Shown: positions 18,060-22,584 of the stretch, one piece after another
Numbering within the stretch: the stretch's first letter is position 1
How the letters are laid out: each line of letters begins with the position of its first letter
Origin: Nitrososphaerota archaeon
GTDB taxonomy: Archaea > Thermoproteota > Nitrososphaeria > Nitrososphaerales > JAAOZN01
Assembly: GCA_011605775.1 (NCBI GenBank)
Contig: JAAOZN010000036.1
Coordinates: 1-47,472, forward strand
Direction of reading: 5' to 3'
Length of the DNA stretch: 47,472 nt
Notes under the pieces: generated by a model
The model's input: the letters and a program-made list of their open reading frames with translations, nothing else
Database searches by the model: none
What the model was told of the DNA's origin: nothing
Position numbers and translations under genes: made by a program

Positions 18060-18608
18060 CTAACGCTGAGCACGTCTAACCCCCCTATCGAGCACCCTAG
18101 CAAGAACAGGGACAAGTATAACGAAAGATGCCACTAAACCACTGCCTGTGAAAAGAGGGGCATCAAGGCTTCTAGCGACCTCAAACACTATCGGTTCGGT
18201 TAATATATGAAGATCTAAGGCGAGGTTTAGTGCGCTCCCTATGTGCGCAGATAGCTCAGCCTGAACCCACACAGAGTTGTTGTAAAGGGGCCACAACAGC
18301 GGCGTGTAGCCCGCCGGGAGATCTAGGGCGATATGCGTAGCAACAGAAAAGAACCCCATAAACCCATACTTCAGAACCTTCGGCTTAAACTTGTAGATCA
18401 CAAAAAAGATGGGTGTTGAAACAGCCAAGAGTGCGATGAGAGAATGCGTAAAGGATCTATGCACAAGAAATAAAGCATCCAAATCAGGGGTTAAGGCGAG
18501 GAGAGAGAGGAGAAAAGCCCTCCTTACATCCACACCCAAGAGCACCAAGGCGACAAAAGGTACCACAAAGTGAACTAAAGGCTCCAACCCACCATGCACT
18601 GCTGGCAA
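18060..18608 (-). CDS. YdjM/DUF457-type membrane-bound putative metal-dependent hydrolase
   Basis: A 182-residue membrane protein with the family pattern: N-terminal HGGLEPLVHF, a TPDLDALF acidic motif (about 39-46) and RSFTHSLIALL (H-S pair near 51-58), then VATHIALDLPAGYTPLLWPL. These conserved His and Asp residues are thought to bind metal at the membrane. The start is TTG. The family has no settled function beyond occasional links to DNA damage responses in bacteria. Confidence 0.8.
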   Translation of the reverse strand: MPAVHGGLEPLVHFVVPFVALVLLGVDVRRAFLLSLLALTPDLDALFLVHRSFTHSLIALLAVSTPIFFVIYKFKPKVLKYGFMGFFSVATHIALDLPAGYTPLLWPLYNNSVWVQAELSAHIGSALNLALDLHILTEPIVFEVARSLDAPLFTGSGLVASFVILVPVLARVLDRGVRRAQR

Positions 18609-18682: not shown

Positions 18683-19300
18683 CTACATTATGCCGGCTTT
18701 CTTTAACGCGCCTTCTATCTCACTGATCTTAGCGCGAATCTCACGCAAACTTTCATCTAAATACAGCCTAAGATCTCTTCTTAATGACCTCAATTCCTTT
18801 CTGGTCTTCCCAGACTCGTCAGTAACAACCCGTCTAGTCTTCTCAGACTCCAACCTAATCACTTCCCTACTCTTTTCTAACTCCAGCTTAATAACTTCCC
18901 TGGTCCTTCCAGACTCTATTCTAATAGCATCTCTGGTCTTTTCTGACTCCGCCTTAATCGTACTCATAGTCTTTTCATCAAGTTCAACGCTTCTTCCAGC
19001 TAGAGCAACACTCTTTTCTCCGAGAACAACATTTTTCTCACTCAGCTTCACAGTTCTTTCTCCCAGCTTTAAGTTCTTCTCACCTAACTCAACGCTTCTT
19101 TCACCAAATTCCACTGTCTTATGAAGTAATCTTTCGGTCGTATAAAGTCTCTCAAAGAGTTCCTCTTGCCATTCGCCACGTCTTATTTCGAAGTAACTGA
19201 ATTCTCCGGTTGCGTCCTGCCAGCTCACATCGAGTTGCTCGACTAAGATTGGGTATCTTTGTATCTTAATGCTTTCTATAAATCGTGTAAGTTTGTCCAC
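18683..19300 (-). CDS. Coiled-coil protein of exact 7-residue and 11-residue repeats
   Basis: A 205-residue protein. Residues 1-62 form a small globular-looking domain (ending FERLYTTERLLH). Residues 63-111 are seven gapless 7-residue units (consensus VELGEKN/S). Residues 112-166 are five gapless 11-residue units (consensus REVIRLESEKT), followed by a decayed sixth and a basic helix to the end. Heptads give left-handed and hendecads right-handed coiled coils, so the rod should change twist at residue 111. It starts at GTG after a G-rich ribosome site. No partner gene is evident and the role is unknown. Confidence 0.75.
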   Translation of the reverse strand: MDKLTRFIESIKIQRYPILVEQLDVSWQDATGEFSYFEIRRGEWQEELFERLYTTERLLHKTVEFGERSVELGEKNLKLGERTVKLSEKNVVLGEKSVALAGRSVELDEKTMSTIKAESEKTRDAIRIESGRTREVIKLELEKSREVIRLESEKTRRVVTDESGKTRKELRSLRRDLRLYLDESLREIRAKISEIEGALKKAGIM

Positions 19301-19448
19301 CCCCCCTTAGCTATAGCTACGATCCTCTTCATACACATAGTGTTGAAGATAGCTCAGCATATAAACTTGGAGAATGGAAATTTTATTGGTCCACGTTGCG
19401 CAGAAAGGCGGTTAGGAACTTCGTTTCTCATCAAGATAAAGATGCTAG

Positions 19449-19558
19449 CGGGCTCGGTGGGATTTGAACCCACGACCTACAGCTCTCTTCTCTCGGTTAG
19501 GAGGCTGCCGCGCTATCCATACTTCACTCACCTAGACAGTGATCTGCGCCACGAGCCC
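19449..19558 (-). tRNA. tRNA-Arg(CCU) with insertions in the D-loop and the anticodon loop
   Basis: Acceptor stem GGGCTCG/CGAGCCC, T arm GTGGG-TTCAAAT-CCCAC and anticodon stem GCAGC/GCTGT enclose loop CTCCTA-A with anticodon CCT. The gene is 110 bases long, about 35 more than mature. A 13-base intron at the canonical 37/38 site lies at 19485-19497. A 22-base insertion in the D-loop lies at about 19521-19542 and contains the inverted repeat TCACT/AGTGA. Removing both gives a normal 75-base tRNA. CCA is not encoded. Confidence 0.92.
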
Positions 19559-19661: not shown

Positions 19662-20471
19662 CTACTTTCGCTTCGCACATCTGTTGTATAGTAGGGTTGA
19701 GAAGTAGACCGCTGATGCTAGAAGGACTATGGTTGCGCCTGAAGGTAGATTTGTTAGATATGATAACCAGAGGCCGAGTAGTGTGAAGAGTAGACTTAAG
19801 GCTGCTGCCCCAAACATCATATGTACGAGCCTTTTCGTGAAGATTTCGCTTACAGCAGCCGGTATTGTAAGCAGCGCCATAACTAGTATTACACCAACAA
19901 CTCTAATCAGCATAACCACAGTGAGAGCTACGAGTGTCAATAAGATGTAATAGATCAGATTAACCGGTAGTCTGAGCGTTTGAGCGAATTCTCTGTCGAA
20001 TGAAATGGCAAGAAGCTCCTTGAAAAGTAGTGCGACCGTTAAGACGAGGATAAGGTCTAAAACCAGCATCACGATTAAGTCGGATCTGGGCACCGTGAGG
20101 ATGTTACCGAATAGGTAGGAGAACAGGTCTGGCACATAACCTGGTGTAAGTTTTACGAAGATTATACCAACCGCCATACCTAACGCCCAGATTACACCTA
20201 TCACGGTGTCTTCTCGCGCCCCAAGTTTCTTTGACGTAGCACCAACCCCTACCGCTACCGCTACTGCGAAAGTGATCGCAGCGTATATCGGGTTTAAGCC
20301 TAGAAAGTATCCTAAACCTATTCCTCCAAATGCTGCGTGCGAGATCCCGTCGCTTAAAAAGACGATTCTATTGACGACAACATATACGCCGATTATGCCG
20401 CATGCTACGCTTGCTATGAGAGCTGTGAAGACAGCGTTTCTGATGAACTCGTATTGTAGGACCTCAAGCAA
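19662..20471 (-). CDS. znuB: Metal ABC transporter permease, ZnuB/TroC family
   Basis: A 269-residue ABC-3 family membrane protein with about 8 hydrophobic segments and the family stretch FLSDGISHAAFGGIGLGYFLGL near residues 37-58. It is the last gene of a three-gene operon (binding protein, ATPase, permease). It would import Zn, Mn or another divalent metal. The metal cannot be set from this subunit. Confidence 0.92.
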   Translation of the reverse strand: MLEVLQYEFIRNAVFTALIASVACGIIGVYVVVNRIVFLSDGISHAAFGGIGLGYFLGLNPIYAAITFAVAVAVGVGATSKKLGAREDTVIGVIWALGMAVGIIFVKLTPGYVPDLFSYLFGNILTVPRSDLIVMLVLDLILVLTVALLFKELLAISFDREFAQTLRLPVNLIYYILLTLVALTVVMLIRVVGVILVMALLTIPAAVSEIFTKRLVHMMFGAAALSLLFTLLGLWLSYLTNLPSGATIVLLASAVYFSTLLYNRCAKRK

Positions 20472-20477
20472 ATCAGA

Positions 20478-21230
20478 TCAGTGTTCTTCAACTACTCTGT
20501 GTGGCAGACCGTGTGCTATGATGTCTACTGGACATTGGTAGGCTTCCATCCACATCTCCCGTGTTATCTGCTTCGACTCGTTGTAGTAGAGTTTTTTGTT
20601 TAAGCAAGCGATCTTATCCACATATTTTGAAAGGGCGGATATGTCGTGTGTAACGACTATTATCGTCATCCTGCTTTTAAGCTCGTTAAGATATTCCCAG
20701 AATTTCGTGTCAAGCCTCCTGTCAACGCTTAGCGTCGGTTCATCTAGTAAGAGGAGCTTCGGCTCTGTTGCTAGGGCTCTTGCTATGAAGACCCTCTGCC
20801 TCTGCCCGCCTGAAAGTTTACCTATGGGTTCATCCTTCAGCCCTTCTAGCTCCACAGCCTTTAGTGCTTCCAAAGCGGCTCTTTTGTCCGCTTCACTATA
20901 TGGTTTAATTAAGTTACTTCGGTTGAGTCTACCTGTTAGGACTACATCCCAGACCGTAGCTGGGAAGGATAGGTCTGGTTGGTTCAGCTGAGGTACGTAG
21001 CCGATCAACTTCTCAGATTTATGAGGAGGCTTCCCATAGACCTTTACGAAGCCTTTGGTCGGCTTCAGTAACCCAGCTATAACTTTGAGTAAGGTTGTCT
21101 TACCGCCTCCATTAGGCCCGATTATGCCAAGGAAGTCGTTTTCAAGAACCTTAAGGTTGATACCTTCGAGCACGCATTTTGAGTTGAAGTAGACTGAAAC
21201 TTCCTCAATCTCCACCGCTAGGTTAGGCAA
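20478..21230 (-). CDS. znuC: Metal ABC transporter ATP-binding protein, ZnuC family
   Basis: A 250-residue ATPase with Walker A GPNGGGKTT, signature LSGGQRQR, Walker B LLLLDEPT and switch His in VVTHDIS. The C-terminus carries YQCPVDIIAHGLPHRVVEEH, a His/Cys-bearing tail common in metal-ion ATPases. It lies 1 base from the binding-protein gene and 6 bases from the permease gene, so all three are in one operon. Confidence 0.93.
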   Translation of the reverse strand: MPNLAVEIEEVSVYFNSKCVLEGINLKVLENDFLGIIGPNGGGKTTLLKVIAGLLKPTKGFVKVYGKPPHKSEKLIGYVPQLNQPDLSFPATVWDVVLTGRLNRSNLIKPYSEADKRAALEALKAVELEGLKDEPIGKLSGGQRQRVFIARALATEPKLLLLDEPTLSVDRRLDTKFWEYLNELKSRMTIIVVTHDISALSKYVDKIACLNKKLYYNESKQITREMWMEAYQCPVDIIAHGLPHRVVEEH

Positions 21231-21231
21231 T

Positions 21232-22113
21232 CTAGCTCAGCGCCTCCTTTAGGGATAGGGCGAAGCCCTTTATGTGTGTAACATAGTCTGTGAAGGAATG
21301 TGTGTCAACCAAGATAATCTCTACGCCCAGTTCCTTTGTTATAACTTCTAGCTGCCGTGGGTCAAACTGTGGTTGGGCGAAGACCGCTTTTACGCCTGCT
21401 GCTTTGGCCGCTTCGACTACTTTAACCATCTCCTCGACCGTCGGTTCTTTGCCCTCTTCTTCTAGAGCGATCTGTTTTAAGTTGTAGTCTCTGGCAAAGT
21501 ATGCCCAAGCTGAGTGATAGACCACGAAGACCCTTGTTCTGAGGTCTGAGAGGATCTCCTTAACCTCATAATCGAGTTTCTGCAGGTCGTTTACGTATGT
21601 GTCTCGATTCTCCTTATAGATCTTCGCACCGTCTGGGTCTATCTGCACAAGCCCCTGGTATATTGAGTCGACTATTTTAATGGCGTTTCTTGGTGAGAGC
21701 CAGACGTGCGGGTCAGAATGTCCCTGAGAGCCTATCAACTCTATTTCAGCGCTTGTGTCAACTATAAGCATATTTGGGTTTAGCTCAGCCAACTTATCTA
21801 ACCAGTTGACTTCAAACTCAAGACCAGCACCGACTTTAAAGTAGATTCTAGCACCGCTCACAGCCCTGATAGCGGATGGTGTTAGATCAAAGGTGTGTGG
21901 GTCGGCGTTAGGCGGCACCAGAACCGCAACGTCCACCCTATCTCCACCCACTCTTCTAACAAACTCGGCATACGGGTTTATTGTTACACCAACCCTAATC
22001 TTTTGAGATCCGGTGTTTTGTGGCTCCGAATTTGGGGCTAATAGAGCCGAAACACTTGCTCCTACGGCTACGAGCAGAATTAGGATTAGGGATGCGGTCC
22101 ATCGGTTCATCAT
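21232..22113 (-). CDS. znuA: Metal ABC transporter substrate-binding protein, ZnuA/TroA family
   Basis: A 293-residue cluster A-I binding protein with an N-terminal membrane anchor (about 7-24). The metal ligands are visible: His in PNADPHTFDLTPSAIR (about residue 73), His in SDPHVWLSPRNA (about 135), His in VYHSAWAYFARDY (about 199) and Asp/His near VDTHSF. The classical His-rich loop of ZnuA is absent. It is the first gene of the operon and divergent from the NikR-like gene, which probably regulates it. Confidence 0.9.
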   Translation of the reverse strand: MMNRWTASLILILLVAVGASVSALLAPNSEPQNTGSQKIRVGVTINPYAEFVRRVGGDRVDVAVLVPPNADPHTFDLTPSAIRAVSGARIYFKVGAGLEFEVNWLDKLAELNPNMLIVDTSAEIELIGSQGHSDPHVWLSPRNAIKIVDSIYQGLVQIDPDGAKIYKENRDTYVNDLQKLDYEVKEILSDLRTRVFVVYHSAWAYFARDYNLKQIALEEEGKEPTVEEMVKVVEAAKAAGVKAVFAQPQFDPRQLEVITKELGVEIILVDTHSFTDYVTHIKGFALSLKEALS

Positions 22114-22134
22114 TAGTTTTCTTAGTTTTATTAA

Positions 22135-22143
22135 CTTTATAAG
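22135..22143 (-). promoter_or_regulatory. TATA box of the znuA operon
   Basis: On the minus strand it reads CTTATAAAG, centred 26 bases before the ATG at 22113, which predicts a leaderless transcript. It shares the 75-base divergent region with the regulator gene promoter, so one bound repressor could cover both. Confidence 0.55.
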
Positions 22144-22168
22144 CCTTTCTTAATAATCTGACTATATG

Positions 22169-22178
22169 CTTTTAAACG
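22169..22178 (+). promoter_or_regulatory. TATA box of the NikR-like gene
   Basis: GCTTTTAAAC is centred about 27 bases before TTG 22201. That favours TTG 22201 over ATG 22189 as the real start, because the ATG would lie before the predicted transcription start. Confidence 0.4.
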
Positions 22179-22188
22179 AGTATTAATA

Positions 22189-22584
22189 ATGATCTGTGGG
22201 TTGGCTGTAATCAGCGTTTCGATTAACGATCACTTGTTAGCAGAGCTCGACAGAATACGGAGTGAAGTAGGTTTTTCAGGAAGATCTGAAGCGCTGAGGG
22301 CTGCGATAAGGCTGCTAGCCTCAGAGTACCCACGCAAAGTGGAGCTTGATGAAAGGACCGTCGGGGTTCTTCTGCTCATACACGGTCATGAGGCTGAAGA
22401 TCTTGTTACTGAGGCGAAGCATAGATTTCTCGACATAGTGCATACCCAAGTTCATAATAGGTTTAAGGTAGATAAGTGTCTAGAGCTCTTCATACTAAAC
22501 GGTCTATTGAGTAGGATGCTTGAATTCAAGAGCATCTTCCAGAGAAGCGACAAAATCGATTACGTTAAACTGATCACAATCTGA
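22189..22584 (+). CDS. nikR: NikR-like metal-responsive regulator (CopG N-terminus, ACT-like metal domain)
   Basis: 131 residues from ATG 22189; TTG 22201 is a strong alternative start giving the usual short N-terminus (MAVISVSINDH). A ribbon-helix-helix DNA-binding part (VISVSINDHLLAELDRI, SGRSEALRAAI) is followed by the NikR C-terminal domain. Compared with the E. coli Ni site (H76, H87, H89, C95), this protein keeps H78, H89 and C97 at the matching positions but has Arg91 in place of the third His. Metal choice may therefore differ. It is divergent from znuABC and likely represses it when metal is plentiful. Confidence 0.82.
   Translation: MICGLAVISVSINDHLLAELDRIRSEVGFSGRSEALRAAIRLLASEYPRKVELDERTVGVLLLIHGHEAEDLVTEAKHRFLDIVHTQVHNRFKVDKCLELFILNGLLSRMLEFKSIFQRSDKIDYVKLITI

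Follow-up and report, generated by a model that had tools for sequence, protein, structure and literature searches.

The stretch of DNA analysed here (the window; 47,472 nucleotides from a contig of a Nitrososphaerota archaeon) contains, on the minus strand, a 205-aa open reading frame (ORF; 18683..19300, GTG start) in which a short head is followed by two blocks of tandem repeats. The locus raises two questions, namely, what kind of protein carries such an array and whether the gene, as assembled, can produce it. The earlier note on this ORF had placed seven 7-residue units at residues 63–111 and five 11-residue units at residues 112–166, as we also found them, and had proposed a rod or spacer topped by a small head domain of unknown fold. 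We now consider it quite probable that the gene is a coiled-coil-tailed archaeal acylphosphatase that is broken in this assembly. Acylphosphatase is a small and much-studied enzyme, the cellular role of which is still debated. Acylphosphatases and coiled coils are known kinds of protein, and a search for acylphosphatase with coiled coil or heptad among the papers covered found none describing tailed forms, although such papers may exist.

The heptads (18968..19114, minus strand: VEFGERS, VELGEKN, LKLGERT, VKLSEKN, VVLGEKS, VALAGRS and VELDEKT) follow the consensus V-E-L-G-E-K-N/S, and the hendecads (18803..18967, minus strand: MSTIKAESEKT, RDAIRIESGRT, REVIKLELEKS, REVIRLESEKT and RRVVTDESGKT) follow the consensus R-E-V-I-K-L-E-S-E-K-T. 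Self-identity is 0.45 at lag 7 in the heptad block and 0.48 at lag 11 in the hendecad block, values reached by none of 100,000 composition-preserving shuffles (shuffle maxima, 0.33 and 0.30, respectively), and at lags other than multiples of the repeat period it is 0–0.13. Both blocks are gapless and the units, previously called exact, are exact in length but not in sequence, with 45–48% identity between adjacent copies. The repetition had also been described as visible in the DNA; as a sign of recent repetition this does not hold, with 59–64% nucleotide identity at the repeat lag and 2.4 copies reported by Tandem Repeats Finder. The copies are old because their third codon positions have diverged (identity between adjacent copies, 0.33 for heptads and 0.55 for hendecads), which also rules out recent repeat slippage in the window.

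The identity of the head became apparent from homologues. A scan of bacterial and archaeal genomes yielded three full homologues matching window residues 2–205, from a Nitrososphaeria metagenome-assembled genome (MAG) (L017), a MAG labelled Archaeoglobales (L018) and a Thermoproteota MAG (L019), and two further homologues lie in genomes G415 (L072) and G429 (L073), which belong to the same phylum. These relatives are 59–69% identical to the window protein over 121 shared columns, and all five start with a complete acylphosphatase (e.g., L072, MKRIVAVAKGDVQRVGYRDEV...GYVENVKPYDVRIVAEGDEEKL...). The acylphosphatase family PF00708 was found in L017, L018 and L019 with 68.6, 71 and 75.1 bits, respectively (curated cut-off, 22.5; E values, 6e-19 to 6e-21). 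On a tree of acylphosphatase domains the five intact members form one group with support of 100/99, the window's own domain being too short to be placed. The AlphaFold2 model of L017 has the order of a ferredoxin-like beta-alpha-beta-beta-alpha-beta fold (E2–10, H17–27, E31–38, E41–48, H50–61, E69–78), followed by a single helix at residues 92–207 (116 residues). The solved structures nearest to the intact relatives are acylphosphatases; for the L017 model, the best Foldseek matches are those of Sulfolobus, Thermus, Deinococcus and Pyrococcus (TM normalized to the target, ~0.9; rmsd, 1.2–1.4). Like PF00708 enzymes such as those of Sulfolobus solfataricus (2bjd) and Pyrococcus horikoshii (1w2i), the intact relatives have the complete domain, a matching predicted fold (TM ~0.9) and both catalytic residues, Arg and Asn; their heads presumably hydrolyse small acyl phosphates. 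Whereas the solved free-standing acylphosphatases listed are about 90–105 aa long and have no tail, the intact relatives carry a long coiled coil in addition.

Compared with these enzymes, the window copy lacks the catalytic half. What remains in the ORF (residues 1–54; 19139..19300, minus strand) comprises helix 2, strand 4 (TGEFSYFEIRRG) and a conserved linker, EWQEELFERL. The head of unknown fold is therefore the C-terminal half of an acylphosphatase, the other half of which has been lost, and a novel fold can be rejected. The original start of the gene lies outside the ORF: ten codons at 19303..19332 (minus strand; ATG AAG AGG ATC GTA GCT ATA GCT AAG GGG) encode MKRIVAIAKG, the first strand of acylphosphatase, which is nearly identical to the start of L072 (MKRIVAVAKG). 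The ancestral 5' end, which the coordinates first given to the gene had missed, is in a frame different from that of the ORF, and a further ATG lies at 19338 (ATG TGT ATG AAG ...). A TATA-box-like TTTATAT (19359..19365, minus strand), 21–27 nt upstream of this ATG, would fit an archaeal promoter at the original start. The sequence and its alignment with the five intact relatives show that the frame is shifted at a run of seven G (19300..19306, minus strand), after which the other frame reads DKLTRFIESIKI... and aligns from about residue 51 of the relatives. About 38 residues are missing at this junction, i.e., the loop with the catalytic Arg, helix 1, and strands 2 and 3 with the catalytic Asn. 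In the alignment with the five relatives, the two residues that serve catalysis in the acylphosphatase family, Arg (in VQRVGYR) and Asn (in GYVEN), fall in the lost segment. The frame from the old start ends after about 20 residues. The 205-aa ORF matched no Pfam family, PF00708 included, and the two remaining head pieces read jointly scored 16.2 bits against the cut-off of 22.5. A search of PDB sequences with the window protein returned only chance coiled-coil matches, and Rfam gave nothing useful for the region. As assembled, the old start would yield only a short peptide; making the 205-aa rod would take either an internal GTG start or a frameshift, and the rod could not act as a working acylphosphatase.

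The truncation is explained about equally well by a real deletion and by an assembly artefact. That the MAG was misassembled or missequenced here, so that the cell has a normal tailed acylphosphatase, is to our judgement credible, if slightly short of an even chance; the family assignment would be unaffected. The assembly is in 107 contigs, the run of seven G at the junction is longer than the G runs of the relatives on either side, and two related sequences, L073 and L007, also have runs of N in this gene. On the other hand, the missing part is non-repetitive, so repeat collapse is no explanation, and a deletion between two similar stretches, AAGGG and GAGGG, would be an ordinary event. The substitution pattern bears on the same point. 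The remaining ORF shows no sign of decay in its sequence, because, at columns where the other five sequences are invariant, it has 6 changes of its own, within the range of the intact genes (1–9). This lack of excess or unusual substitutions in the tail means that the damage is recent, or that the tail is still used, or that the deletion is an artefact. Searches of the window's own genome (99.6% complete) found no intact copy of the clade; the other acylphosphatases of this genome are of different kinds, namely a plain form on C7, an EFRDYR-tailed form on C87 and a form with yet another tail on C65, and we thus rejected the idea of an intact copy elsewhere.

The gene might instead be real as read, with translation from the GTG at 19300 giving a head-less rod that either acts as a structural spacer or co-assembles, as a regulator, with other tailed acylphosphatases. 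AlphaFold2 predicts for the window protein one continuous helix of 160 residues (ORF residues 43–202, i.e., 42–201 of the model, which was made without the first codon so that its numbering is shifted by one), the open frame is kept, and the sequence is about as constrained as those of the relatives. We nevertheless regard this reading as improbable. The TATA-like box and the ATG are still positioned for the old start, in the other frame. Residues 1–40 of the ORF represent half a fold, and the prediction leaves them unfolded (pLDDT under 50 at model residues 8–40). No homologue with the same truncation was found in the homologue and genome scans. Far less probable still is that the G run is slippery or phase-variable and joins both frames in a small fraction of the protein: the seven-G homopolymer does lie exactly where the frames meet, but the joined product would still be without helix 1, strands 2 and 3 and both catalytic residues, and the relatives carry no comparable G run at this point.

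The surroundings of the gene offered no functional clue, as neighbours are not conserved between relatives, which argues against a dedicated operon partner. Near the window gene are a zinc ABC transporter and a tRNA gene; near L017, enolase-superfamily-like genes (assigned by eye); in G415, genes for a radical SAM protein, a PIN protein and deoxyhypusine synthase; and in G429, those for a KaiC-type ATPase and an iron-sulphur hydrogenase-like protein. The transporter, of the zinc type (ABC-3 permease, ATPase and ZnuA-like binding protein; 19662–22584), adjoins a divergent NikR-like regulator. The tRNA-Arg(CCU) gene (19449..19558, minus strand), an upstream neighbour that is not part of the gene, has two apparent introns, one in the D-arm and one of 13 nt in the anticodon loop; standard ARAGORN misses it, and it was found only once the D-arm segment was removed. 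A YdjM-like membrane protein gene (18060–18608, minus strand) adjoins the window gene on the other side; a broken copy of one of its relatives (G001:C5:28080-28545) lies beside a tailed acylphosphatase in a genome from the same genus.

The tail has the same anatomy throughout the clade. Heptads of the VELGEKN type are followed by ESEKTRE hendecads and a conserved C-terminus, an order that is constant wherever it is readable and that the window protein shares. Its C-terminal helix (residues 167–205; 18686..18802, minus strand) has the pattern LRxDLR...ISEIExALKKAGIM, which is common to the clade. Counted by eye, heptads number 7 in the window, 7 in L017, 2 in L018, 5 in L019 and 17 in L072 (L073 has a run of N there), and hendecads number 5, 1, 2, 1 and 2 in the same order and 2 in L073. 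The expectation that copy number may vary is thus borne out between species (2–17 heptads and 1–5 hendecads), but the copies in the window are too diverged for easy slippage. The runs of N inside the repeat tails of L073 (G429:C30) and L007 (G019:C38) look like assembly breaks within the repeats or masking of the stretch.

The rod or spacer originally proposed is supported by the continuous predicted helix and by the homologues, which keep the order of 7-mers and then 11-mers. The helix, predicted for a monomer and not for an oligomer, has the 7/2 or 11/3 periodicity of coiled coils; the two findings that would have spoken against a rod, homologues lacking this arrangement and a prediction without a coiled coil, did not appear. 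At 3.5 residues per turn heptad coils are left-handed, whereas hendecad coils, at 3.67, are slightly right-handed (PMC4786415), so the supercoil would be expected to turn from left- to right-handed at the switch from 7 to 11. A stripe can be read in the sequence through this switch (L72-N76-L79-T83-L86-N90-L93-S97-L100-S104-L107-T111-I115-S119-T122-I126-S130-T133-I137) in steps of 4 and 3, with extra 4s at the heptad/hendecad junction. The heptad pattern is unusual in that V and L are two apart with G, S or N between them, unlike textbook a/d leucines. Core-like positions are rich in Ser, Thr and Asn, and Val lies at the edge; therefore, the packing is not of the textbook kind.

Tailed acylphosphatases are not confined to this clade. 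From searches covering 400 genomes of the class, 300 of the phylum and the fetched loci, 43 distinct tailed sequences were obtained. The catalytic Arg (VQxVGxR) and Asn (GYVxN) are kept in all 43, the conservation of Arg being in part by construction since the pattern used for collection ended in R or K. Tails with clear repeats show periods of 7, 11 or 18 (= 7+11) and multiples of these, all of them coiled-coil periods; several other tails have weak repeats only. The tail motif follows the enzyme clade, with 6 label changes on the tree against a minimum possible of 5 and an average of 27 in shuffles, the labels being our own motif patterns and the tree one of 48 rows and a short domain with a bootstrap that had not settled. 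The L004 and L016 tails contain copies that are nearly identical in DNA (third positions, 0.93–0.94), and repeats therefore do expand in the family. Taken together, these data show that thermophilic archaea carry several acylphosphatases with lineage-specific, repeat-built tails of variable length. In L005 (G038:C13), L075, L079 and L080, which come from other archaea in the phylum, the KQDQMLA-type heptads form very long arrays of about 15 copies or more. The EFRDYR-clade tails L049, L062, L064 and L069 repeat every 18 residues (LGNKIDTLSEQTKSGFDI-like), which adds a third coiled-coil period to the family. Most of the genomes listed for the large family f10 have plain frames only, of about 92–101 aa.

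As for the function of the tail, its anatomy makes oligomerisation or spacing of acylphosphatase heads the likeliest role. In the intact relatives, the tail would assemble copies of the enzyme, with several heads carried on one rod, the repeat number would set the length of the rod, and the conserved C-terminal helix may cap or nucleate the bundle. Segments of different periodicity within one continuous helix are likewise found in trimeric autotransporter stalks and other proteins (cited in PMC4786415); in contrast to those stalks, the tail here belongs to an archaeal enzyme and the sequences of the intact relatives have no signal peptide, and we claim no homology. The protein cage of Vibrio cholerae (4hi2 and 6krb) is also formed by an oligomer-forming acylphosphatase, but its chain of about 91 aa needs no coiled-coil tail, and the likeness, judged from PDB titles and lengths, is one of outcome only. 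A more elaborate scheme, which we think rather unlikely, is that thermophilic archaea run several acylphosphatases in parallel, with a lineage-specific tail (VELGEKN+ESEKTRE, KQDQMLA, EFRDYRQ, MKGDIKE and others) sorting each into a homo-oligomer of its own; the repeat number would tune size, and head-less or inactive copies such as that in the window would act as rods or spacers.

The window copy is a broken example of a tailed acylphosphatase. Together, the tails form a natural series of coiled coils with periods of 7, 11 and 18 and widely differing lengths, each on a crystallisable head. The occurrence of several tailed forms per genome, with a motif that tracks the clade, suggests that acylphosphatase in these archaea functions either as an oligomer or on a scaffold.
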